From positions 1-43,132 of IMG/VR virus record IMGVR_UViG_3300020466_000336: a DNA stretch of 43,132 bases. One strand, written 5' to 3'. Under the pieces are notes generated by a model, which did no database searches, was not told the origin of the DNA, and saw only the letters and a list, made by a program, of their open reading frames with translations. Origin of the DNA: a virus. A program made the position numbers and the translations under genes. This document shows positions 1-24,703 of this stretch, piece by piece. Numbering within the stretch: position 1 is the stretch's first letter; the number at the start of each line of letters is the position of its first letter.

Positions 1-1050
1 ATGGCGAGTATTGTCGCGCGCCCGAGAAAGTCGGGCACAGTATATCAGGCCAAGATACGCATCAAGCGAGACGGGAAGATTGTCTGGCAGGAGTCCGAGA
101 CCTTCAGCAAGCGGGCCCTGGCGAAGGAATGGGCTGCCCGACGCGAAGTCGAGCTGCGCGCGCCTGGCGTGCTTGAACGTCTGACCCACGTGGGGCTGAC
201 CATCCGGACGGTGCTGGAGTGGTACCTCGAGGACTTCGACGGCGCGACCCAGTTTGGCCGCACGAAGCTGTCGCATATCAACTTTCTGATGGGGCAGCCG
301 ATTGCCGACCTCGATGCGATCGCGCTGACCTCTCGCCAGGTCCTGGCCCATCTGCGGGAGAGGCGGCAGACTGCATCCGCGGCGACGGTGAACAACGACG
401 TGATCTGGCTGAGCAATGCCTTCCGGTCGGCCCGGGTGGACCGTGGAGCGCCTGTGAATTCTCAGGCCCTGGACGACGCGGCATACCTGGCGCGGAAGGA
501 GAGATTGATCGGCAAATCCAAGGAGCGCAACCGCCGGCCGACCATGGACGAACTCGAGCGCCTTGTGCGCTACTTCCAAGCGCAGCGTCGGAACAAAATT
601 CCGATGGTCGATATTATCGGCTTCGCGATTTTTTCCACCCGGCGCCAGGAGGAAATTTGCGAGATTCGGCGCAGCGATATGACCAATGGTGGCGTGTGGG
701 TGCGGGATATGAAGCACCCGACTGAGAAGAAGGATACCTTCGTCTTTCTGCCTGAGCGCGCCCAGGCGATCGCTGACCGACAGCCGGCCGGCGACGTGGT
801 GTTTCCCTACAATTCGAAGAGCGTGTCGGCGGCGTTCACCAAGGCATGCAGGTACCTTGGCATCGAGGACCTGAGATTCCACGACTTGCGCCATGAAGGG
901 ATCAGCTACCAGTTCGAACTCGGCAAACAGATCCCCGAAGTGGCCATGATATCCGGCCACCGGTCCTGGGCGAGCCTCAAGCGGTATGCCCACATTCGGG
1001 AAATGGAGGATCGGTATGCGAACTGTGAGCTGTTCAGCCATTGCAGCTAG
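1..1050 (+). CDS. int: Tyrosine recombinase integrase
   Basis: Site-specific recombinase expected to integrate and excise the prophage. The 349-residue product carries the tyrosine recombinase catalytic set in order: R215 in STRRQEEICEIR, the HDLRH box at 294-298, H320 with W323 in SGHRSW, and the nucleophile Y329 in LKRYAH. The N-terminal third (about 1-180) fits an arm/core DNA-binding region with a SAM-like domain. The first base of the window is the A of its ATG, so its promoter, ribosome site and any attL lie outside. Its 3' end overlaps the opposing PrtN-like gene by 17 bases, so the two transcripts converge. The family call is secure; the exact attachment site is unknown. Confidence 0.95.
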   Translation: MASIVARPRKSGTVYQAKIRIKRDGKIVWQESETFSKRALAKEWAARREVELRAPGVLERLTHVGLTIRTVLEWYLEDFDGATQFGRTKLSHINFLMGQPIADLDAIALTSRQVLAHLRERRQTASAATVNNDVIWLSNAFRSARVDRGAPVNSQALDDAAYLARKERLIGKSKERNRRPTMDELERLVRYFQAQRRNKIPMVDIIGFAIFSTRRQEEICEIRRSDMTNGGVWVRDMKHPTEKKDTFVFLPERAQAIADRQPAGDVVFPYNSKSVSAAFTKACRYLGIEDLRFHDLRHEGISYQFELGKQIPEVAMISGHRSWASLKRYAHIREMEDRYANCELFSHCS

Positions 1051-7171: not shown

Positions 7172-7202
7172 CCCCCGGGCTTACCACCCGGGGGTTTTTA
7201 TT
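7172..7202 (+). terminator. Strong intrinsic terminator
   Basis: CCCCCGGG (7172-7179) pairs perfectly with CCCGGGGG (7187-7194) over a 7-base loop, followed by TTTTTATT. It separates early genes from the late/accessory block. If the preceding gene is an antiterminator, this would be the element it overcomes. Confidence 0.9.
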
Positions 7203-7211
7203 GGTGCCCCA

Positions 7212-7646
7212 ATGATATTCAACAAAGCACGTGGCTTCGCGCTTGGGATGGCCGAGGGCAATATCGTAGTCTCGCCGCCTCCTGGCACAGCACAATTGGA
7301 GTACCGGTTTACTACCGCGGCCGATGTGCTGTGGAATTCCCAGCTCACGCCTGGCTTCGGGGCTGCGTTGGTCGCGGACACCTTTCCGGACAAGTCAGCT
7401 TCCGTAGCCGACTCTGGGTGGAATCTCGGCGGAACCAACCAATTCGATGTCGTGCTCAACGACAAGACGGTGGTTGCCACCGGTGGCCAGGTCATCTTCC
7501 AGTATGTGTGGCTTGTAGAGCAGGGGGCGCCTCAGAAGCGCCTATTGGGTTTCTGGGACTTCGGTGAACCGCAGACGGTCCTTGATGGACAATCAATGCT
7601 CTTGGATTTACAAGATGAGAACAATGTTGCGTTTTCTCTCAACTAG
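7212..7646 (+). CDS. Hypothetical beta-rich protein
   Basis: A 144-residue protein of alternating beta-like segments (GTAQLEYRFTTAADVLWNS, NQFDVVLNDKTVV, GGQVIFQYVWLVEQG), similar in feel to small phage virion or decoration proteins. No family is recognised. The ATG at 7212 has a poor ribosome site, and an internal ATG at 7248 is an alternative. It is the first gene after the terminator and its 3' end overlaps the start of the heme protein gene by about 23 bases. Confidence 0.55.
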   Translation: MIFNKARGFALGMAEGNIVVSPPPGTAQLEYRFTTAADVLWNSQLTPGFGAALVADTFPDKSASVADSGWNLGGTNQFDVVLNDKTVVATGGQVIFQYVWLVEQGAPQKRLLGFWDFGEPQTVLDGQSMLLDLQDENNVAFSLN

Positions 7647-10600
7647 CCTGCTGCTGCTGGCCGCGGTTGCGGCGCATGGCATGCCTCTCGGTGGGGGGCA
7701 GACGGCGCACGCAGAGGCCAACATCGCATCGTTCGACCCAACGACCTATCCCATCACGCGCGTCGGCCTGACTCTGCAGTTCGATGAGTCTGATCCGATG
7801 GATGTGGGGGAGCAGATACTGCTGCGGGTATACAACGGCGCAGGTGTTGAGGTCGCTACCGCGCAATGCACCAATGACTTTGCGCAACCGATCTATACGG
7901 CGTCCTGTCTCTCTGCGATCCTGAGCGCGGCTGTGCCGGATTCGACCTTCGATGTTGCACTTGAGTCCCTGGCGGGCACGATGGAGATCGATTCCGCCGC
8001 GCTGGTCGTTCACAGCGCGCCAGGCGTGAATCGCAAGCGCGAGTCAGCAACCCTCACGCTGGAATCGGGTTCGCCGGGTGCACTCGACCCGATCGATTGG
8101 AGCCCCGGGGTCATCTTTGATCTTGGCGGCTTCGACGTGTATCAGGGCTATTTCCCCGACACTGGCCCATACGTGCCGTCCGGTGTCACCGTCGCATCAT
8201 CCAGCTACCCGACCACGCTCAGTGCAGTACATCCCAGCGGCGTTGATCAGCCAGCGAACGAGAACCCCGCCCGTTACCCCATTGCCTACAACCTGAATGA
8301 AGGCGCGCAATCCAACAGTCAGCGCCTGGTCATGGTGTTGCATGGTGATGGCGCAGGCGAAGAGGCCTGCCATGGCTATGGCGTGAATGTGGCAGACGAG
8401 ATGAGGGTACGACTGTGCAACTCGGAATATCCGAGTCGTGATAGCGTGGACTATCAATCGCAAGGGCTCGGGGGAACCGCTGGGTGGTGGACCTACTGGG
8501 GCGGTACCCCGTCCTGTCCGCAGTGTTCATCCAACGCCGCGGGCCAGAGAATTGCCCAGGCCATCGTCGAACTACAGGCAGATCACGCTGGCATACTGGA
8601 TGTGGCCGCAGGTGTCATGCTGACGGGGAGCGACTACGGCGGTATCGGGTCGATCAATCAGTCCATGGTGCTACCGCGCGTGCGGGATCAGGTCGCGATT
8701 GTTTATTCCACCGCGTCGTGGACGAATCTCGTAGAGCATCCCAGTGGATACGATGCTAGTACCGAGATACAAACTGCCTGGGGCAGCAATGACCCTGACT
8801 CGGTAAACTTCAACGTGCAGGCCGCCACCGGCGCGCTCGATCACATTTTCTATCGGGTCCACGGCTCAACGCAGGACAATGAGACGCCGCTCTCACAGAG
8901 TTTTTTCACAGCCTGTAACGACTACAAAATCGCTTGCCTTGGCACGTGGCATGCGGCGGTACCGCATGGCGGCGACCCTGGCCACCAGGGAGGGGAGGAC
9001 GGGATCGATCTGCCCAGCATTCTGTTCCCTGACGCGAATATGGATGTTCGCCTCGACCAGCCATTAATCGTTTATACGAACTCGACCGGGAACCAATTCG
9101 GGCTTCGAGGACATTACAACCTGGGGCTCAGCTGGGATAGCGCAGGTATCGTTGCCGATACGGACAGCCTTACCGTACCGCTGAAATACACCCACGCCAC
9201 TGGCCTCTCCAGCGATCCGGAGAAAGCCTTGCCAGATCAGCCGACCGATATCACAGTGAGTGTGACGATACGGCGCAGCAACACGTTTATCATCCAACCC
9301 AGCCAGAGCGTTGAATGGTCCTATGGTGGTCAGGGAGGCATTGTAACCGCGAATAACCAGGGCGAGGTGACTATTGACGGCCTGGCGATGAGTAGCAGTA
9401 GTGCCTACTCCGATCTCGTTCTATCACGGCCTGAATCTCAAGCAGGAATCATCTATACGCGATCGCTGATTGCATCCAATCCGGTGCCACAAAATGGCTG
9501 GGATGATGCCTCCGCGGCGCAGAAAGTTACGGATGTAAAATCGATTCACGGTGATTTTACAGAGGCCGATATCGTCTATGACGATTTGAACGGTAACGTC
9601 TATGTCGTTTTCAATTGCACGGGCGATCCGATGCTCGACTGTGTCGCCCAGGAGCCGCGCGTCAGCCCGGACGGAACGAAGGCGCTTTTCACGGTCGGGA
9701 TTGCAGATCAGATGGGCGGGTTCGGGCAGACAGAGTTCATCCAGACACTCAAGACATCACAACTCTACCTGTACGACATTACCAACCCATCTGCACCGCC
9801 AGTACCGGTAGACACTTTGCCTGGACCAGACGCCATGGCCAGGATGCCGGATTGGATCAACAATGAAACATTCGTGTTTATGGCAACGTATGCACAGAAA
9901 CATCCGATCAAAGGCACATCGGAAATGTACACGTTCCCCGATCAGTTTGGACACACACACTATGGGGCCGATCGCTGGGGTATTTCCCAAGAATACTACA
10001 CCGGCAACGTAGACCCATACGGTATCAGCGCCAAAGGTGGGGCGCATTCCCTGCAGCTCTACAAGATGAACATTGATGGTACCGGAGAGTGCGGAGCCAG
10101 CTATCTCAATCCAGGCACTGGCAACCAGCCGTGTCTGCTTACGCCCCATGAGTACATGGCCCTTCGCCCAACGGTGTTAACGACGGGCGATATAGTGTAT
10201 TCGTCACTGCAATCGCATTCCGATAAGGCGCGGGACTCTGCATCACCAGGGCATGGTACGAGGATGAACAAGTGGTGGATCGCCCGGACGGACCAGTGGG
10301 GTGGGGACGCGACGATACTTGTGAATGCGCACTCCAAAACGCCGGTCATCGAAACCAAGTCACTGCTGAATCCGGTACTGTATAGCGGTGGCGAGGGGTC
10401 GGATCAGTTTCGCGCATTGCGGGCCATCGGTGAGGATGACCAAGGCAGGCTGTACGTTACCAACTACTATCGCGGCAATCACAGGGGCTTGGGTATCATC
10501 TTCCGTTTCTCGATCACGGACCCGCACGTGGAAGGATGCAGCATTCTCGACAATATCCCTGCGGCAGTGTTCAGTAGTTCCACTCCCGGCAGTGGCGGCT

Positions 10601-12222
10601 ATATGCCGTGTGATATCGAGTCGTTCACGCCTGCAGGTAATTCTCAGGATGGAGAACCGCGGCGATTCGACAACCCGTTCACGCCAGAAGACGACAATAT
10701 CGTGGTCGGAAAGGCAGGTTACTTCGCGGCGGGGCCCAATGGACAGAAAATTATTACCTGGGGGCGAGGTCACTGCTTTTCGCCGTATGCGTACGAGGGT
10801 TCTCCCTATATGAGGCATTCTTGGTCGAACCTAGATACGACCTGTGACAGTGGTATTTACGAAGTTGGTGTTGACCAGCTGCTGAATCCTTTCGATGGCG
10901 TCAATGAACTCATCCCGATCGTGGATTCGCCTGATTATCACGAGTGGGATGCGGTATCGGTAGCCACGTATCAGGATCGATACGGGCAGCCCATGCCCAC
11001 TCAGCAGCCCAACCCGCACACGAATCCTGGCGGTGCTTGTTATCTCGAGGTCGCGGATGCCACGGAAGCTGAGTTGGCGTCTCGCTACGGATATGTCTAC
11101 GACTTCCTCACGAAACGCTGGTCGAACTGTGGTGTACAGGGCTGCGCGGTCAAGTCGGAAGATCCGGCATTCCACGCCAACACCATCGCTGGGTTCAAGA
11201 TTCTCAAAGCTGACCTCTGGGATACCTACTACCCCAGCACCTTATTCAAGGGCACGATGAATGCGTTTGGCTTCAAAAAGGTCACGGACCTGGGCACGCA
11301 GCCCCTCGAGGCAGATGGATCAGTGAAGGTGCGCGTGCCTTGCGATACGCCCTTGCTCATGGCGGGTGTAGATTCGGATGATCTGGCTATCGCCTATGAC
11401 CACATGCTGCAGTCCTTGAGGCCTGGCGAGACGCGGACCTGCCATGGGTGCCATGCGCGGCACGGCCAAGAGGCGTGGGAGGCTGGAGGTAGTATTACTG
11501 CCGCAGCACACTTTGACGGCAAGGATGCAGAGGGTACTACGCCGCCTCTTCTGGCTGGTACTGAATCGCTGGATTTTGCTACGGATATCGCCCCGATACT
11601 GGATACGCGCTGCAAGTCCTGTCACGCAGAAATGAATGCGTCCGATCCCCACCTGTATGCAAAAGTCGCCCAGGACTTCCAGCAAAGAGGCTTCAATTTC
11701 CTTGAGCGCACATATCAAGGTGCTCGAACCGGGACTGGTGTCAAGCACATAAGGATCAAGTCCGGGGGCACTGGCTACGCACCTGGGGAAGCGATATCAG
11801 TTGCCGGAGGCAATGGTGCCGCTACGGGGTTTGTCGCGTCAGTTGACGGCTCCGGTGCGATCACAGCGATCACTATGAATGGTGCCGAAGGCTATGGCTA
11901 CGACAATGGTGCTGTCGCGACCGTGACGACGGCGGGGGGCTCCGGCGCCGAGTTGATTGCGCAAACCGAAGTCGTCTTTCTTGTGCGGCCGCAGATGTCG
12001 AAACTGGTAGCAAGATTTGGCCGCGAATCACTGTTGTACTGGGCTTGTATGGGATCGCGGCAGGATGGGCGGACCAACGAGCAGTATGCGACCGATATCG
12101 ATTTTGATGTGCCCTCGCATCCGGATGCTGGTGATCCTGGCTATGCCACGGTGGCAGAGTGTCGGAAAATCGCCCGCTGGATTGACCAGGGTGCGCATGG
12201 GTATGTGGCTCCGAATCTATGA
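7624..12222 (+). CDS. Secreted c-type heme protein with hydrazine-synthase-alpha-like propeller
   Basis: A 1532-residue protein. The start at 7624 gives a clean signal peptide (MLRFLSTSLLLLAAVAAHG); an ATG at 7615 is also possible. Residues about 235-480 look hydrolase-like (LVMVLHGDGAGEE, then GSDYGG at 335). About 590-1150 form a PD40/beta-propeller-like region (VSPDGTKALF at 680). DGSVKVRVPCDTP and RPGETRTCHGCH follow, with CxxCH heme motifs at 1273-1277 and 1330-1334 (CKSCH). This order is that of the HZS_alpha/PSCyt type of periplasmic cytochrome. A GGTGY-rich phage-type insertion (about 1375-1430) splits the last cytochrome segment, which ends AECRKIARWIDQGAHGY. Heme attachment would need export and host Ccm machinery. 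It is probably lysogen-expressed cargo, but a virion role is not excluded. Confidence 0.75.
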   Translation: MLRFLSTSLLLLAAVAAHGMPLGGGQTAHAEANIASFDPTTYPITRVGLTLQFDESDPMDVGEQILLRVYNGAGVEVATAQCTNDFAQPIYTASCLSAILSAAVPDSTFDVALESLAGTMEIDSAALVVHSAPGVNRKRESATLTLESGSPGALDPIDWSPGVIFDLGGFDVYQGYFPDTGPYVPSGVTVASSSYPTTLSAVHPSGVDQPANENPARYPIAYNLNEGAQSNSQRLVMVLHGDGAGEEACHGYGVNVADEMRVRLCNSEYPSRDSVDYQSQGLGGTAGWWTYWGGTPSCPQCSSNAAGQRIAQAIVELQADHAGILDVAAGVMLTGSDYGGIGSINQSMVLPRVRDQVAIVYSTASWTNLVEHPSGYDASTEIQTAWGSNDPDSVNFNVQAATGALDHIFYRVHGSTQDNETPLSQSFFTACNDYKIACLGTWHAAVPHGGDPGHQGGEDGIDLPSILFPDANMDVRLDQPLIVYTNSTGNQFGLRGHYNLGLSWDSAGIVADTDSLTVPLKYTHATGLSSDPEKALPDQPTDITVSVTIRRSNTFIIQPSQSVEWSYGGQGGIVTANNQGEVTIDGLAMSSSSAYSDLVLSRPESQAGIIYTRSLIASNPVPQNGWDDASAAQKVTDVKSIHGDFTEADIVYDDLNGNVYVVFNCTGDPMLDCVAQEPRVSPDGTKALFTVGIADQMGGFGQTEFIQTLKTSQLYLYDITNPSAPPVPVDTLPGPDAMARMPDWINNETFVFMATYAQKHPIKGTSEMYTFPDQFGHTHYGADRWGISQEYYTGNVDPYGISAKGGAHSLQLYKMNIDGTGECGASYLNPGTGNQPCLLTPHEYMALRPTVLTTGDIVYSSLQSHSDKARDSASPGHGTRMNKWWIARTDQWGGDATILVNAHSKTPVIETKSLLNPVLYSGGEGSDQFRALRAIGEDDQGRLYVTNYYRGNHRGLGIIFRFSITDPHVEGCSILDNIPAAVFSSSTPGSGGYMPCDIESFTPAGNSQDGEPRRFDNPFTPEDDNIVVGKAGYFAAGPNGQKIITWGRGHCFSPYAYEGSPYMRHSWSNLDTTCDSGIYEVGVDQLLNPFDGVNELIPIVDSPDYHEWDAVSVATYQDRYGQPMPTQQPNPHTNPGGACYLEVADATEAELASRYGYVYDFLTKRWSNCGVQGCAVKSEDPAFHANTIAGFKILKADLWDTYYPSTLFKGTMNAFGFKKVTDLGTQPLEADGSVKVRVPCDTPLLMAGVDSDDLAIAYDHMLQSLRPGETRTCHGCHARHGQEAWEAGGSITAAAHFDGKDAEGTTPPLLAGTESLDFATDIAPILDTRCKSCHAEMNASDPHLYAKVAQDFQQRGFNFLERTYQGARTGTGVKHIRIKSGGTGYAPGEAISVAGGNGAATGFVASVDGSGAITAITMNGAEGYGYDNGAVATVTTAGGSGAELIAQTEVVFLVRPQMSKLVARFGRESLLYWACMGSRQDGRTNEQYATDIDFDVPSHPDAGDPGYATVAECRKIARWIDQGAHGYVAPNL

Positions 12223-15125
12223 CGGAGTTCGTCAATACACTCAAGCCGTCAGGAGGTCACTACTCAGTCATACAGGACTGGATCGATGATCTTGCCACGA
12301 CCGTGGGCTCGCCGGATTGGTCAGCCCATCCCGTTGTCATACTCAATTTTGCGAACTATGGCGACAGTCATGGAACCGGCAAGACCAAGCCGACCGTGGG
12401 AAGCGTCTGGATAGGTCAAACGTCTGGAGCGGTCGCGGTGGTGCTCACTGAGTCGCAGGACTCCAGTTGCCTGGCGATTCGCACCAGTGGTGCGGCCTTC
12501 GTATCTGGTGAGCCGTGCGTTCAGTATGGCGTCAACGATACCCTCGATTTGGTTGGTTCGCCCGCTGCTTGCTCAGGCGCGGTGCTGGAGTGTTACGACG
12601 GCGACTATGGTGGGGTCAACGGCGCATACACCCAGTCGACACTAATCCCCGACGAGATTGGCAATGCCAACACCCAGATCGTGATACGGGCCGCGGCCGG
12701 ACAAGATCATGCCGGCGAACTCGATGCCGGTTTCAAAATTCGGTCAGTGAACGAGTGCTTTCACGTTGAAGGTAAGTACGTCACGTTGGACCGGCTGCAG
12801 CTGAAGGTAACGGGTGGCGGGCAATACGCGGTCGAGCTCTATGCGCCGCAGTCGGTTGTGCTTTCGCGGCTACTCGGTCAATGCCAGACCGACTGCGGGT
12901 TCATCGTCATGTACGGCTCGCTCAACCAGGCAGAGGACGATGTCATCATTGATCGTTGCGTCGGTTATGATTCACCGACCTGGCCAGTGTTTAACCTGGG
13001 GCGAGGCGTGACGATGCGCAACTGCGGTGCCTATGGTAGCGCGACCGGTATATCGTTCATCAATAACTGCCGCATTGAGAATTGTGTCGCTTTTGGCAAC
13101 GGCACAGATTTCGCTTTCTCAGCTGCGAACGCAGGGAGCGGCCACAACGCCAGTGGGGATATGACGGCACCCGGGTCGGCCAGCCAAACTGGCTTGGACA
13201 ATGCGGATTTCGTCGACTACCCGGGTGACAATTTCCGGCCCGCGTTGACGCAGCAGCTGGCCGGGAACGGCGCTGACCTGTCTGCGCACTTCACTGCGGA
13301 TATTGCGGGCCAGGACTATGTCAACTGGGATATTGGACCCTACGTCAATGCGTCTGGCACTTCGAGCCTGAGCTTCGATGGTCCGAATATCCCCGACCAA
13401 CAGGCCACAGGCCACGATCCCTACAGTTTTTCGGTTGCGGGCAGGTGGTCCAGCGATGATGAACCACTGACGTACAGTGAGTCACCCGCCGGCGCTGCAT
13501 GGCCGTCCTGGCTGAGTATCGATGCGAATTCAGGCATCCTCACCGGTATGGTCTCGGATAACGCGCAGATCGGCACAACAGCTGGCCTGATCGTTCGTGT
13601 GACAGATAATTTGGGGGCGGAGGCCGATTCCAACGCCTTCTCCATGGAAGCGGTGAAGCCCGCGCCGGCCAGTTTTAACCCATCGTTGCCGGCGGATGTG
13701 CAGGTCGGGCTTGGTGCGATGGTGAGTTTGGCCTATCAGATGAACGCACCCGCGCCGCCACTTGCAGCCGTATGGCAGGTTGATGTGGACGGTCTCGGCT
13801 CCTGGGAGACCGTCGATCCTGCTACCTCGGACAACCCGTATGAATTCACCAGCGTAGCAGGCGACGATGGTGACAAGTACCGCTTCCTCTACTGGGATGT
13901 GTACCAGCAGATCGTCACGACCCGAGAAGCGACCATTACGGTCATAGCCGCAGCACCGGTGATTAATGCAAGTTCGCCGGCAGATCAAGCGGTGCTGCAA
14001 GGCAACAATGCAGTGTTTGCGGTTATCGTGGATGACGGCACCCCACCATACAATTTCCAGTGGTATGAGGTCGGCGTAGGGGTGATGCCAGGCGAGACGG
14101 GCGACTCGTTAACGATCGCTGGTGTAGCGTACCCTGGCGACGATGAGCGGCAGTTCTACTGCGAAGTGACAGATCAGTTCCTGAATATGTCGCAGTCTCG
14201 AACTGCGACGCTCGTTGTGCCATCAACTCCGGTCGATGCCGATCCAAGCAAGCCCGCTGACGCGGCCACCATACCTGGCCAGGCGGTCGTCTTTGAGTCG
14301 GATATCACCAATGCAGACGGCGGCTTGATGTACCTCTGGGAGTACAACGACGGCGTGTCGGGTTGGCTGCCGATGGCAGGCGAGGACCAGGCTACTCTCA
14401 CCTATACGCCGTCCGCACCATCAGAGCATGGCTGGCAGTTCCGGTGCCTCTACGGTGATGGGTACGAGCAGACAGGGTATACCCGCGAGGCCACACTCGA
14501 TGTTGCGGTCTACGCGGAGCTTGAGCGTGGTGTGCTCACCATCAATGGCGATTACGACCTGTACCTGTACGTGTTGGGTAGCCCGCCGGCACCATCTAAC
14601 ATTGTGGCCGACAGTACTGCCCAGGTGCAGGAAGCCGAACAACCAGCGCTCGCCCAGGACTATCAAGTGGTTGTCCTCGGCGCTGAGCAGACCCAGGCTC
14701 AGGACGCGGTACTGCTCTCTCTGGAGCATGTTTATCCTGATGACAGTGCTCAGCAGCAGACGATGTCAGAGCCTGACGTGTGGATTGAGCTCATCACGCC
14801 GGAGCATTCCGAGCAGGAGCAGTCACTGGACCCTGGGGGCGTCATTCCATCGTATGTGCCTCTGGTCGTGGTCGACAGTGCCGAGCAATCGCAGTCGCTC
14901 GAGCAGGCGGTATTCACCCAGAACTATGTACTTTCCGTGGATGATACTGAGCAGGCGCAACTGCTCAGTACCGCCACGCTTACCGTGGCCCAGGCGGTCG
15001 CGATTCATAACACCGTCCAGCGCCAATTTGCGGATCAGGCTGGCTTTGCGTTCGTCGTGGGGCTCAAGTTGGAGGGAGAAATCATCACCTACGCCGCTCT
15101 GGGCGGTGAGATCGTTACCTACTAG
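12219..15125 (+). CDS. Beta-helix and Ig-repeat surface protein
   Basis: A 968-residue protein without a signal peptide, starting in an ATGA overlap with the heme gene. Residues about 140-320 read as a right-handed parallel beta-helix (short repeated turns such as FHVEGKYVTLDRLQLKV and RGVTMRNCGAYGSATG). About 380-475 is a putative He_PIG/cadherin-like domain (PSWLSIDANSGILTG). Three Ig-like modules follow to about 770. The last part (about 797-945) has seven xQxQ repeats with a 21-24-residue period. The composition fits a tail spike, adhesin or large surface protein. No catalytic residues for polysaccharide cleavage can be pointed to with confidence. Confidence 0.7.
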   Translation: MTEFVNTLKPSGGHYSVIQDWIDDLATTVGSPDWSAHPVVILNFANYGDSHGTGKTKPTVGSVWIGQTSGAVAVVLTESQDSSCLAIRTSGAAFVSGEPCVQYGVNDTLDLVGSPAACSGAVLECYDGDYGGVNGAYTQSTLIPDEIGNANTQIVIRAAAGQDHAGELDAGFKIRSVNECFHVEGKYVTLDRLQLKVTGGGQYAVELYAPQSVVLSRLLGQCQTDCGFIVMYGSLNQAEDDVIIDRCVGYDSPTWPVFNLGRGVTMRNCGAYGSATGISFINNCRIENCVAFGNGTDFAFSAANAGSGHNASGDMTAPGSASQTGLDNADFVDYPGDNFRPALTQQLAGNGADLSAHFTADIAGQDYVNWDIGPYVNASGTSSLSFDGPNIPDQQATGHDPYSFSVAGRWSSDDEPLTYSESPAGAAWPSWLSIDANSGILTGMVSDNAQIGTTAGLIVRVTDNLGAEADSNAFSMEAVKPAPASFNPSLPADVQVGLGAMVSLAYQMNAPAPPLAAVWQVDVDGLGSWETVDPATSDNPYEFTSVAGDDGDKYRFLYWDVYQQIVTTREATITVIAAAPVINASSPADQAVLQGNNAVFAVIVDDGTPPYNFQWYEVGVGVMPGETGDSLTIAGVAYPGDDERQFYCEVTDQFLNMSQSRTATLVVPSTPVDADPSKPADAATIPGQAVVFESDITNADGGLMYLWEYNDGVSGWLPMAGEDQATLTYTPSAPSEHGWQFRCLYGDGYEQTGYTREATLDVAVYAELERGVLTINGDYDLYLYVLGSPPAPSNIVADSTAQVQEAEQPALAQDYQVVVLGAEQTQAQDAVLLSLEHVYPDDSAQQQTMSEPDVWIELITPEHSEQEQSLDPGGVIPSYVPLVVVDSAEQSQSLEQAVFTQNYVLSVDDTEQAQLLSTATLTVAQAVAIHNTVQRQFADQAGFAFVVGLKLEGEIITYAALGGEIVTY

Positions 15126-16120: not shown

Positions 16121-16627
16121 GTGAACCTGGCGGACAATCGTTGGGATCACGACTTCCGCCTGGCCTCGGTGCAGTATCTGCCTGATCTGGACTGGCGATG
16201 GCTCAAGGCGCAGTGCTATCAGGAATCGCGCTACAACAATCGAGCGGTGTCGCCGGCCGGAGCACAGGGCCTCATGCAGATTATGCCCGCAACCTGGCGC
16301 ATGCTGGTGGAGCGCGAGAAGATACCGCCGACCGCCGATCCTTTCTGCGGGCGCGACAGTATCCATGCCGGCGCGATCTATCTGGCGATGTGCCGCAAAA
16401 CATGGTGGTGGCAACGGCCAGAGATTGATCGCCTCGCGCTTGCATTGGCCAGCTACAACGCGGGCTCCGGGCATCTACTCACCGCGCAGCGCAATCAAGG
16501 CGACCCGAGCGACTACGCCGGCATCATTGCGGGTCTCCCTGCCGTCACCGGCGATCACTCCAAGGAGACGATCGCATACGTGCGTAGGATATTTACCTAT
16601 TTCCGCCAGCTGGTGGTGGGCAGTTAG
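16121..16627 (+). CDS. Lytic transglycosylase endolysin (SLT family)
   Basis: A 168-residue lysozyme-like protein cutting peptidoglycan glycan strands. Catalytic E35 is in CYQESRYN, followed by SPAGAQGLMQIMPATW and ALASYNAGSGH, the three SLT/GH23 signatures. There is no signal peptide, so release depends on the holin encoded next. GTG start after GAGAAGGGG. It could alternatively act in DNA entry, but its place next to holin and spanins supports lysis. Confidence 0.88.
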   Translation: MNLADNRWDHDFRLASVQYLPDLDWRWLKAQCYQESRYNNRAVSPAGAQGLMQIMPATWRMLVEREKIPPTADPFCGRDSIHAGAIYLAMCRKTWWWQRPEIDRLALALASYNAGSGHLLTAQRNQGDPSDYAGIIAGLPAVTGDHSKETIAYVRRIFTYFRQLVVGS

Positions 16628-18337: not shown

Positions 18338-19921
18338 GTGTCAGCCCTGCCCAGTGGACTCAACCATGACCCGGAATCGCCCCAGGTCACTGATGCGCTG
18401 TTGCAGGAGGTCGAGGCCCATCTGCACGACTGGCACTGGCGGATCAATAATTTATACCGGATCACCGACAAGCGCGGGGTCGAAGTCCAGTTCCAGCTGA
18501 ACGCCGCGCAGCAGCGATTCTTCGAGGATATGTGGTACCGCAACCTGATCCTCAAGGCCCGGCAGCTGGGCTTCACCACGTTCATGCTGATCTTCATGCT
18601 GGACGCGGCCCTGTTCACCCCGAATACCCGGTGCGGCCTGATCGCGCACACCCAGCTCGATGCGAAACGCCTGTTTCGGGACAAGCTGCGGTACGCCTAC
18701 GACCGGCTGCCGGAATGGCTCAGGCAAAGGTGCCCGGCGCGGAACGATAGCGCCGGCGAACTGGTTTTCGACAACGGGTCCAGCGTCACTGTCGGTACCA
18801 GCTACCGCGGCGGTACCTTGCGCTACCTGCACGTCTCCGAATTCGGGAAGATTTGCCGGCAGTACCCGCACAAGGCCACGGAAATCGTCACCGGTGCGTT
18901 CGAGTCCGTCGGCCTGGATTGCGTCATCACGATCGAGAGCACGGCCGAAGGCCGGCAGGGCCACTTCTACGAGTACGCCCAGCAGGCCGAGCGCGATCAC
19001 CTGGCCGGTGTTCAGCTGACGCGCCTGGATCAGAAATTCTTCTTCTATCCGTGGTACGACGATCCGGCCTATACCGTCTCGGAGGATGAGGGGCGCGATG
19101 TCGTGATCCCCAGGCGGCTGATCGACTATTTCGTCGACCTCCGCAAGAAGCACGGGATCAAGCTCAGCAAGGGCCAGATGCTGTGGTACACGCTCAAGGA
19201 AAAGTCCTTGGGCGGACACATCAAGCAGGAATACCCGACCACCCCGGCTGAGGCATTCTGGCAGTCACTCGAAGGCTCCTACTACAAGGAGCAGTTCGAT
19301 GCCATCTTCGAGCAGAAGCGCATTTGCCGGGTGCCGCACCAGCCAGGCGTGCTGGTGCATACCATCTGGGACCTGGGCGTCAATGACGCCAATGCAATCT
19401 GGTTTGTCCAGCGATCGGGCCGTGAGTGGCACCTGATCGACTACTACGAGAATAACGATGTTGGCGTGGATCACTACGCCAAGGTGCTGCATAAGAAGCA
19501 CACCGAGCTTGGTTACGAGTACGGTCTGCACGTCGGCCCGCATGATCTGGAGGTCCGGGAATGGGGCAACGACGGCAAGACCCGGCGCCAGGCTGCGAGA
19601 GACGCCGGCATCCACTTCTTGCCGGAGCCGGCAAAGATGGGGCTGGTCGATGGCATCGAGGCCGCCAGGACCATCCTGCCGCGATGCTACTTCGATGAGG
19701 AACGCACCGCGGACGGTACGGCGCACCTGCAGGCGTATCGCAAGGAATGGGATGACAAGCGCGGTATGTGGAAAGACAAGCCGTTTCACGGCCCGGAGAG
19801 TAACGGTGCCGACTCGTTCCGCTACTTTGCCGTCAACGCCTCGATCATAGATCAGTTTATGCACAACACCAGTAAACCGGCGATGCAAAAGCCGGCAGGC
19901 CCGGGAGGCTACTACGCATGA
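18338..19921 (+). CDS. terL: Terminase large subunit
   Basis: A 527-residue packaging motor with GTG start. The ATPase has a Walker A-type ARQLGFTT at 74-81 and a Walker B with catalytic Glu in LHVSEFG (E168). The TIESTAEG motif follows. The nuclease has D345 in IWDLGVND, D403 in GPHDLEV and D492 in GADSFRY, the three-acid RNase H-like set. It acts at the portal to translocate and cut concatemers. Length is normal and nothing is missing. The four-base ATGA overlap couples it to the next small gene. Confidence 0.93.
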   Translation: MSALPSGLNHDPESPQVTDALLQEVEAHLHDWHWRINNLYRITDKRGVEVQFQLNAAQQRFFEDMWYRNLILKARQLGFTTFMLIFMLDAALFTPNTRCGLIAHTQLDAKRLFRDKLRYAYDRLPEWLRQRCPARNDSAGELVFDNGSSVTVGTSYRGGTLRYLHVSEFGKICRQYPHKATEIVTGAFESVGLDCVITIESTAEGRQGHFYEYAQQAERDHLAGVQLTRLDQKFFFYPWYDDPAYTVSEDEGRDVVIPRRLIDYFVDLRKKHGIKLSKGQMLWYTLKEKSLGGHIKQEYPTTPAEAFWQSLEGSYYKEQFDAIFEQKRICRVPHQPGVLVHTIWDLGVNDANAIWFVQRSGREWHLIDYYENNDVGVDHYAKVLHKKHTELGYEYGLHVGPHDLEVREWGNDGKTRRQAARDAGIHFLPEPAKMGLVDGIEAARTILPRCYFDEERTADGTAHLQAYRKEWDDKRGMWKDKPFHGPESNGADSFRYFAVNASIIDQFMHNTSKPAMQKPAGPGGYYA

Positions 19922-20310: not shown

Positions 20311-22290
20311 ATGCAGCTTGTGGCAGTGCAAACCCCGGCCCAGGTCACGGAGCGGATCGAGGCCGAGAAAGCGCGGCGGATCGCCAATGGTCGGGTACAG
20401 TACCAGCAGCCGGAAATCGTGGATGCCCTGGCCAACAAGGTGCGCGGCGACTGGCAGATCGCCAAGAGCACGAAGCAGGTCGTCACGCAGCGGCTGGTGG
20501 ACTGCCTCGAGCGCCGCAGCGGGGAGTACTCCGCACAGAAACGCCAGGAGATTGCCCAGACGCAGGGCAGCGGTATCTACATGCAGCTGACAGCGGCCAA
20601 GTGCCGCGCGGCGAAAGCCTACCTGTCGGACCTCTACACACCTTCTGGCGACCGGCCTTTCACGATTAAGCCAACGCCGATCCCCGAACTGCCGCCTCAA
20701 ATCCAGCAGAAGCTGATGGCCGAGGCCATGGCGGTGCTGAATCAGTCGCAGATCGAACCGGCCGCGGTCGCACAGATCCTCGAAAAGCACAAAGAGCGGT
20801 TGATCGGCGAACTGATGCACCAGGCAGAGAAGCGGGCGGAGAAGATGGCCGACCATGTCGAGGATATGCTGGTCGAGGGCAAGTTCCGCACGGAGTTCGA
20901 CGCCTTCCTCGATGATCTGGTGACGTACCCGGCGGCGATTATAAAGGGTCCTGTCTTTGCCAATCGGGCCAAGATCAAGTGGGTTGAAGTCCAGGGTCAG
21001 TACGCGCCCCAGCGCTCACATGAGATCGTGCCGGAGGTTCGTCGGGTGTCGCCGTTCGACTCCTATCCAAGTCCTGGCGCGCGAGCGGAGCTCGGCGGAC
21101 ATTGGCACATCGAGCACCGCCGCTTTACCTTTTCCGAGCTGGCATCTATGCGGGGCGCGCCAGGCTACAACACGCTCGCGATCACCAGAGCGCTGCATGA
21201 ATATCGCCAGGGCGGGCTGCATGAGTGGATCTGGTCGGAGGAAGAGCACCGCCGTCTGTCGGGCCAGAACAGCGTCTACGGTCGGCGGGAGACAATCGAT
21301 GCACTGGAGTGGACCGGCACGATGTCCGGCCAGATGCTGGTCGACTGGGGCATGAACCCGCAGTCAGTCCCTGATCTGGTCAACGAGTACCCGGTGTCCG
21401 TTATCGTGGTCGGGAACTTTGCGATCCGTGCGCTGGTGAACCCCGATCCGGCGGGCAAGCCCGACTACTTCAAGGCGTGCTGGGAGAATGTACCGGGCTC
21501 ATGGTGGGGCCGCGGCCTGCCGGAGATCATGGCCGACTGCCAGGATATGTGTAACGGCGTGGCCAGGGCGCTGGCCAACAACCTGGGCCTGGCGAGCGGT
21601 CCGCAGGTCTGGGTGAACAACGCCTACGCGGAGGATGGCGCAGACTACCAGACCATCTATCCCTGGAAAATATGGTATTTCCGCACGCCGACCACGAACA
21701 GCGGGCAGCAGCAGAAGCCGATGGACTTCTTTCAGCCAAACAGCCACGCCAGCGAGCTGATGGAGGTCTACGAGCGGTTTGCGAAGTACGCCGATGAGGT
21801 CACGGGCATGCCGGCTTTCGCCTACGGATCGGACAGCGGTGCCGGCGCGGCCAAGACCGCATCCGGCCTGTCGATGCTGCTCAATGCTTCGAGCAAGACC
21901 ATCAAGTCGGTTGTGCACAATATCGATATCCACGTCATCGAGCCGCTGGTCGAGAAGTTCTACAACCACGTGATGATGACCCACCCGGACAACAGTATCA
22001 AAGGGGATGCTGTCGCGAAGGCCCGCGGTTCCGAGTCGCTGATCCACAAGGAAGCCGCACAGGCCCGGGCCCAGGAACTGCTAGGCATTCTGAGCAACCC
22101 CGTGGATCAGCAGATCATTGGCCTTGACGGCCGCCTCGAGTTGCTGAAGGAAGTGCTGAATACCGGGGATATGCCGGTAGAGCGCATCCTGCCATCGCTC
22201 GAAGAGCTGGCGGCGAGGCTGCAACCGGCTCCCCCGGAAGCTGGCCCTGGCGATAAATCCGAGCAGCAGCCCCAGGCGGCCGCGGCATGA
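20311..22290 (+). CDS. Portal protein
   Basis: A 659-residue head-tail portal, the ring through which DNA enters and leaves. Typical features are an N-terminal helical region, VEVQGQYAPQRSHEIVPEVRRVSPFDSYPSPGA-like wing strands (read in parts), GSWWGRGLPEIMADCQDMCNG, and a long C-terminal helical crown with AAKTASGLSMLLNASSKTIK. Length and order match podovirus-type portals. It follows TerL as usual, and its stop overlaps the next gene by four bases. The tail end is Pro/Gln/Ala-rich. Confidence 0.88.
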   Translation: MQLVAVQTPAQVTERIEAEKARRIANGRVQYQQPEIVDALANKVRGDWQIAKSTKQVVTQRLVDCLERRSGEYSAQKRQEIAQTQGSGIYMQLTAAKCRAAKAYLSDLYTPSGDRPFTIKPTPIPELPPQIQQKLMAEAMAVLNQSQIEPAAVAQILEKHKERLIGELMHQAEKRAEKMADHVEDMLVEGKFRTEFDAFLDDLVTYPAAIIKGPVFANRAKIKWVEVQGQYAPQRSHEIVPEVRRVSPFDSYPSPGARAELGGHWHIEHRRFTFSELASMRGAPGYNTLAITRALHEYRQGGLHEWIWSEEEHRRLSGQNSVYGRRETIDALEWTGTMSGQMLVDWGMNPQSVPDLVNEYPVSVIVVGNFAIRALVNPDPAGKPDYFKACWENVPGSWWGRGLPEIMADCQDMCNGVARALANNLGLASGPQVWVNNAYAEDGADYQTIYPWKIWYFRTPTTNSGQQQKPMDFFQPNSHASELMEVYERFAKYADEVTGMPAFAYGSDSGAGAAKTASGLSMLLNASSKTIKSVVHNIDIHVIEPLVEKFYNHVMMTHPDNSIKGDAVAKARGSESLIHKEAAQARAQELLGILSNPVDQQIIGLDGRLELLKEVLNTGDMPVERILPSLEELAARLQPAPPEAGPGDKSEQQPQAAAA

Positions 22291-23770: not shown

Positions 23771-24703
23771 ATGGCAAAGTTTCCCGTATCAGGGGTACCG
23801 TCTCTCGCTTCGGACAGTACCTCGAAGTTTATCCCGGCCATCTGGTCGACGAAGCTGGTCACGAAGTTCTACGATTCCACCGTATTCACGGAGATCGCGA
23901 ACACTGACTACGAGGGCGAGATCAAGGCCCATGGTGACGAAGTCATCATCCGCACTGTCCCGTCCATCACCATCAACAACTACCAGAAGGGTGGCGGTCT
24001 CAACTACGAGGACCCGGAATCCCCGAACGTCACGCTGACGATCGACCAGGGCAAGTATTTTGCCTTCAACTGCTGGGACATCGACAAGCACCAGTCGGAC
24101 ATCGATCTGATGAACAAATGGTCTGAAGATGCCTCCGAGCAGATGAAGATCGCTATCGATACCGACATCCTGGCGGCGATCGGTGCCAGTGCGCACGCGG
24201 ACAACTCGGGGGATTCCGCTGGCCGTATCTCTGGCGATATTGACCTGGGTGAGGCTGCTGCCGGCGTCGGTACCAACGCCGTACAGCTGACCAAGGCCAA
24301 CATCCTTGATCATCTGGTCGACTGGGGTACGGTGCTCGACGAACAGTCGGTGCCGGAGTCCAATCGTTGGGTGGTTCTGCCGGCCAAAGCCTGCGGTCTC
24401 ATCAAGAAGTCTGACCTTCGCGATGCGTCCATCGCCGGTGATGGCACCAGCATCCTGCGCAACGGTCGCCTGGGGATGATCGATCGGTTCACGATCTATC
24501 GCTCCAACAACCTGAACGTCAACAACACGGAGATCGATATCCTCTTCGGACATCCCTCCGCGCTGACGTTCGCCGCGCAGATCACGGAAATGGAGACCAT
24601 CAAGAACCCCGATGACTTTGGTGATCTGGTTCGCGGTCTGGAGGTCTACGGCTTCGAGGTCATCAAGCCGGAAGCCCTGGGCCACGTGGTAGCCAAGTAC
24701 TAG
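23771..24703 (+). CDS. Major capsid protein
   Basis: A 310-residue HK97-fold-like coat protein. The N-arm (PAIWSTKLVTKFYDSTVFTE), the region with NYQKGGGLNYEDPESPNVTL, FAFNCWDIDKHQSD (a conserved helix in this coat family), and the C-terminal ALTFAAQITEMETIKNPDDFG and GFEVIKPEALGHVVAKY match P22/podovirus-type major capsid proteins. Position directly after the scaffold fits. No protease gene is seen. The length is normal for an unprocessed coat protein. Confidence 0.9.
   Translation: MAKFPVSGVPSLASDSTSKFIPAIWSTKLVTKFYDSTVFTEIANTDYEGEIKAHGDEVIIRTVPSITINNYQKGGGLNYEDPESPNVTLTIDQGKYFAFNCWDIDKHQSDIDLMNKWSEDASEQMKIAIDTDILAAIGASAHADNSGDSAGRISGDIDLGEAAAGVGTNAVQLTKANILDHLVDWGTVLDEQSVPESNRWVVLPAKACGLIKKSDLRDASIAGDGTSILRNGRLGMIDRFTIYRSNNLNVNNTEIDILFGHPSALTFAAQITEMETIKNPDDFGDLVRGLEVYGFEVIKPEALGHVVAKY

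Follow-up and report, generated by a model that had tools for sequence, protein, structure and literature searches.

An exported, hydrazine synthase alpha-like two-haem protein encoded by a Halieaceae prophage: a candidate phage cargo gene

The gene and its prophage setting

The window analysed here, a whole stretch of 43,132 nucleotides (IMG/VR record IMGVR_UViG_3300020466_000336), carries a prophage, probably of a temperate podovirus of Halieaceae, at the dusA site, where integration is known to occur (PMC4482086). The host appears to be a marine gammaproteobacterium of this family, going by how its nearest relatives are named. Within the prophage lies a long gene for a protein resembling the alpha subunit of hydrazine synthase (HZS).

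1..1050, + strand: tyrosine integrase marking the left end of the prophage, with the dusA start codon about 100 bp away
7172..7203, + strand: strong hairpin resembling an intrinsic terminator (8 G-C pairs, then T5), just 5' of the block
7212..7646, + strand: upstream neighbour of 144 aa, with 41% identity over 69 aa to a homologue
7615..12222, + strand: HZS-alpha-like gene, encoding two haem motifs behind a hydrolase-like N-terminal domain, assigned from the ORF, families and junction sequences
12219..15125, + strand: downstream neighbour of 968 aa with Ig domains (He_PIG), resembling Hoc-like head decoration and whisker proteins over part of its length
16121..16627, + strand: SLT transglycosylase endolysin
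18338..19921, + strand: terminase large subunit
20311..22290, + strand: portal / head-tail adaptor protein
23771..24703, + strand: major head protein, in a gene order as in Pseudoalteromonas phage vB_Pun_Y3
34394..43132, + strand: giant polyvalent virion protein, ending where IS21 istAB starts

The open frame spans 7564-12222, with the likeliest start at ATG 7615 or 7624; counted from the latter, the protein has 1,532 aa. The start of the gene overlaps the 3' end of the gene at 7212-7646, and its stop overlaps the ATG at 12219. A homologue of the 144-aa neighbour adjoins a tail-fibre-like gene in a second prophage of the same genome (C24, described below). Together with the RecE-like nuclease and tail genes also present in the window, the integrase beside dusA, the endolysin, terminase, portal and major capsid genes confirm what had been claimed from the letters alone, namely that the gene is phage-borne, and the gene order likewise places it between early genes and lysis genes.

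The giant polyvalent protein combines InPase, LPD5, LPD1, MuF_C and LPD39 domains and is cut by IS21 istAB (L009 144-2439), beyond which lie copper genes of the multicopper oxidase type. Because this virion protein stops at the insertion element, the right end of the prophage is missing; consistent with such a loss, a search downstream for a repeat of the dusA 5' region, which would mark a right attachment site, found none. Truncated by IS21, the prophage can probably no longer be induced by itself.

Six prophages whose terminase and portal are related to those of the window (at roughly 37-49% identity) do not carry the HZS-alpha-like gene, which is thus dispensable for this phage type. It therefore has the features of a phage auxiliary gene or moron: it lies inside a phage genome, is dispensable and is missing in related phages. 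The gene has a GC content of 0.572 and a GC3 of 0.64, compared with a GC3 of 0.87-0.90 in chromosomal paralogues, and its codon distance is 0.076 to phage genes versus 0.170 to host genes. This phage-like codon usage leads us to reject a recent insertion of a host gene. It also weighs against an assembly or binning chimera joining host and phage DNA, which might be suspected in a genome of 61 contigs that may be a metagenome bin. We regard a chimera as scarcely credible, given the overlapping genes at both junctions, the integration at dusA, and the parallel C24 prophage copy, which an IMG/VR contig reproduces almost without a difference (23.3 kb, 99.996% identical to 3300020466_000335).

An exported haem protein related to hydrazine synthase alpha

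The protein can be divided into the following parts.

7624..7713, + strand: signal peptide, residues 1-30, from hydropathy and sequence
8272..9435, + strand: alpha/beta-hydrolase-like domain, residues ~217-604, with homologues as separate ORFs and as fusions
9436..10977, + strand: TolB-like beta-propeller, residues ~605-1118, from the structure model
11257..11454, + strand: HZS_alpha middle domain (PF18582), residues 1212-1277, containing haem site I, by Pfam match
11440..11454, + strand: haem motif I, CHGCH 1273-1277
11611..11625, + strand: haem motif II, CKSCH 1330-1334
11731..11973, + strand: Gly-rich GTGY module (residues ~1370-1450) that interrupts the second haem domain
11980..12210, + strand: residues 1453-1529, the C-terminal portion of haem domain II (DGRT...DID...WIDxG)

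The N-terminus forms a hydrophobic signal peptide, MRTMLRFLSTSLLLLAAVAAHGMPLGGGQTAHA, as judged by eye and from hydropathy, in which an AxA-type cleavage is possible after AHA30 or AHG19. The Cys, Cys and His of haem motif I are invariant in 26 of 26 aligned homologues, while haem motif II is invariant in the two-haem homologues and missing from all three one-haem phage copies described below. In the 16-member family alignment (the window protein and 15 two-haem homologues), none of the four Cys and two His in the CxxCH motifs varies, and the motifs are therefore not a product of chance. With an export signal and two CxxCH motifs, the window protein has the sequence features of a c-type cytochrome, and the host genome encodes CcmE for cytochrome c maturation. 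The signal peptide and the paired motifs proposed in the sequence-only reading hence both stand.

How close is the relation to hydrazine synthase alpha? The Pfam HZS_alpha model matches residues 1212-1277 with an E-value of 3.1e-11 and 44.1 bits, above the curated gathering cut-off of 26.6, and a profile of the family matches hydrazine synthase alpha in the PDB (5c2v_A) at 4e-15. An AlphaFold2 model of residues 600-1532, built on an alignment of 26 sequences, reached a mean pLDDT of 76.7 and a pTM of 0.80. Its best match among solved structures was again hydrazine synthase alpha (Foldseek 2.7e-20). Superposed on 5c2v (VIA-align), the model gave a Z of 30.1 and an rmsd of 3.5 over 588 aligned residues, spanning positions 5-932 of the model and 55-808 of the 5c2v chain; TolB propellers followed as runners-up with a Z of ~24. 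On this modelled fold, residues 600-1532 are predicted to be related to hydrazine synthase alpha over nearly its full length. HzsA of Kuenenia stuttgartiensis (PDB 5c2v) shares the domain order, consisting of a six-bladed N-terminal propeller, an HZS_alpha middle domain with CxxCH and a C-terminal cytochrome domain with CxxCH. It differs from the window protein, which has an additional hydrolase-like N-terminal domain and the GTGY insert, lacks Tyr591 and is located in a phage.

In HZS, the iron of haem alpha-I is bound by Tyr591 as proximal ligand, four residues past the His of CxxCH (PMC12607021). In the window protein the position is occupied by Gly (CHGCHARHG, where HZS has CSGCHYGSY), and by Ser in most homologues. 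The absence of this ligand and an NCBIfam equivalog score of 32.3 bits against a cut-off of 800 lead us to reject a true hydrazine synthase. No genes for HZS beta or gamma subunits were found among the window proteins read or searched.

Of the HZS_alpha, PSCyt and PD40 models suggested as a check when the DNA was first read, only HZS_alpha matched the window protein. The PSCyt families in Pfam gave no match to the window protein up to an E-value of 0.1, and PD40 gave a weak match below the cut-off in one paralogue only, so that membership of the window protein in either group is rejected. Of the predicted HZS_alpha/PSCyt-type order, the HZS alpha part (propeller, haem domain, C-terminal haem domain) is retained and the PSCyt part is not. 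The propeller-like body is seen in the structure model, and an N-terminal domain had been overlooked.

This domain, residues 217-604, matches separate and fused proteins that carry a nucleophile elbow of the alpha/beta-hydrolase kind (GASYGG, GTSYGG and similar). Most other members, including the C24 and 3300048597_000667 copies described below, retain the Ser nucleophile of GxSxG; in the window copy it is replaced by Asp337 (GSDYGG). The domain has no Pfam match and its model is poor (mean pLDDT 47). A relative encoded on its own gives a weak match to S-formylglutathione hydrolase (0.0019). At no fewer than three chromosomal loci an HZS-alpha-like gene adjoins an Abhydrolase_3/BD-FAE esterase gene. 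These associations suggest an ester-type substrate for the hydrolase/HZS-alpha family. Several relatives in the genus show the same esterase gene beside an HZS-alpha-like gene.

Copies in other phages and on chromosomes

Scans of the genome and viral contigs with the window protein as a single sequence found no homologues; alignment-based searches did. The pair of hydrolase and HZS-alpha thus emerged in three other, different phages, a lambda-like prophage, a T7-like contig and a lambda-like contig, which extends the claim of a phage-borne gene beyond what had been noticed. HZS-alpha-like paralogues, likewise missed at first, are common on Halieaceae chromosomes.

G000:C24:30657-34007 (L012 5658-9008), - strand: HZS-alpha-like gene with a lipoprotein-type signal (LGGC) and one haem motif
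3300025018_000311, ~9383-12516: one-haem homologue in the T7-like IMG/VR contig
3300048597_000667 (L159), 9875-13580: three overlapping genes for a hydrolase, a 125-aa protein without assigned family and a one-haem protein, in the lambda-like IMG/VR contig
G000:C3:332073-335297, C42:179811-182201, C3:355455; C38:51933: HZS-alpha-like paralogues on the chromosome, together with a hydrolase relative encoded on its own

The C24 prophage is the second prophage of the same genome, lambda-like and located beside tRNA-Pro, and encodes a hydrolase fused to the one-haem homologue. A small exported protein (MKVLILALLVFVSLQVSRSHELLHEHLHT..., L123 13352-13540) begins at the stop of its haem gene. In the T7-like contig, the signal-peptide start is out of frame with the remainder of the homologue; the offset falls within a run of nine T and reflects either an assembly error or phase variation. 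In the lambda-like contig, hydrolase and one-haem protein are separate genes, and this copy also has a signal peptide.

The three one-haem phage copies group in a single clade of the tree (100/100) and the window copy branches separately, which requires at least two acquisitions by phages; the window copy sits on a long branch, and its exact placement is unsure. No further phage copies were found in IMG/VR, and no close relatives of the window protein among INPHARED phages or plasmids. Neither the literature searched nor 50,697 phage records contained a phage-borne gene of the HZS-alpha type. Taken from these comparisons, phages have picked up a gene for an exported hydrolase/HZS-alpha-like haem protein repeatedly, making it a recurrent phage cargo.

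The chromosomal HzsA-like proteins of Halieaceae (Halioglobus, Haliea and relatives) have 38-44% identity, the same core and the same two haem motifs, in some cases the GTGY insert, and a hydrolase-like domain that is either fused or encoded by an adjacent gene. They differ in their high GC3, in a mostly retained Ser nucleophile and in not lying in phages where this was checked. Outside anammox, HZS-alpha homologues of clades I-III have lost Tyr591, and some clades are without haem alpha-II and ~100 C-terminal residues (PMC12758564), losses that are shared by the one-haem phage copies described here. Those homologues adjoin beta-gamma subunit and FG-GAP genes (PMC12758564), unlike the genes here, where none of these was found among the neighbours read. 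The published survey does not mention phages, and the function of the relatives it covers is unconfirmed (PMC12758564).

These copies bear on two further explanations. The protein might be a component of the virion or tail, with propeller and GTGY module serving as an adsorption protein on the particle; likely virion protein genes lie on both flanks, and the module resembles those of phage structural proteins. We consider this very improbable, because the window and 3300048597_000667 copies have a signal peptide and the C24 copy a lipoprotein-type signal, because the haem motifs are conserved, and because the GTGY module occurs in several chromosomal paralogues as well. Alternatively, a captured host gene without function for the phage could be decaying as a passive relic in a defective prophage, as the truncation by IS21 and the exchange of the catalytic Ser for Asp would suggest. 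An intact ORF of 1,532 codons, the retention of all family-invariant Cys and haem His, phage-like codon usage and the recurrence in three other, different phages render such a relic quite improbable.

Proposed role and timing

Based on the phage residence, codon adaptation, conserved haem motifs, predicted HZS-alpha fold, recurrence in four phages and the host ccmE gene, we think it fairly probable that the gene is an auxiliary or conversion cargo of a temperate Halieaceae podovirus, encoding an exported two-haem HZS-alpha-like protein. We propose that the protein would be exported by Sec and that the c-type cytochrome maturation of the host (Ccm) would attach the two haems. The propeller and the haem-I domain, built like those of HZS alpha, would probably form a substrate pocket with catalysis at haem I, and haem II would probably hand electrons to a periplasmic carrier of the host. 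The hydrolase-like domain could handle an ester-type substrate or, in the window copy, only bind it, and separate hydrolases may accompany this substrate elsewhere in the family. In this way, the gene could change the extracytoplasmic redox chemistry or the surface of the host during infection or lysogeny. Several observations count against an auxiliary gene: the hydrolase nucleophile is lost in the window copy, the hydrolase domain is poorly modelled, six related prophages do without the gene, and in a prophage truncated by IS21 the present gene may be only a relic.

Periplasmic redox enzymes encoded by phage auxiliary genes have a precedent in soxC and soxD (PMC8190135), which similarly represent redox genes of host origin carried by phages. 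The position of the window gene is a second point of likeness to known systems. It occupies a cargo slot near the lysis genes, as do morons of the lambda type, e.g. lambda bor.

When is the gene expressed? It had been argued that such a protein is probably made in the lysogen, and this is not supported. On the + strand, the interval from the end of the last early gene (7042) to the gene start showed no sigma-70-like site, a terminator-like hairpin lies 5' of the block, and phage genes overlap at both ends; late transcription therefore fits at least as well as expression in the lysogen. This arrangement invites the idea of a late-lytic envelope factor, made with the lysis genes, whose ester hydrolysis or redox activity would aid lysis, release or the exclusion of competitor phages. 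Indeed, the window gene lies between the hairpin and the endolysin with no promoter of its own of the sigma-70 type, the copy in 3300025018_000311 begins ~9 bp after the endolysin stop, and the gene pair in 3300048597_000667 immediately precedes antiterminator Q, holin and amidase. Still, fitting haem to a protein of ~1,500 residues seems a slow process for the late phase of infection, the six related prophages do without the gene, none of the chromosomal paralogues is a lysis gene and PADLOC gives no match, so that we judge this role unlikely. The lack of a PADLOC match also led us to reject a defence system.

We return to the cargo interpretation for what the finding may mean. That four different phages retain the gene, and that the window copy shows phage codon usage, indicates that the enzyme does something worth carrying, and the phage-specific one-haem clade offers compact versions of an HZS-alpha-like enzyme for testing. 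The gene would widen the range of phage auxiliary genes to include large exported haem enzymes of a kind for which the phage records searched gave no example. Tentatively, and at a little under an even chance, we propose that temperate phages of Halieaceae keep their own lineage of exported hydrolase and HZS-alpha-like haem enzymes near their lysis genes, which would constitute a new class of extracytoplasmic redox enzymes carried by phages.
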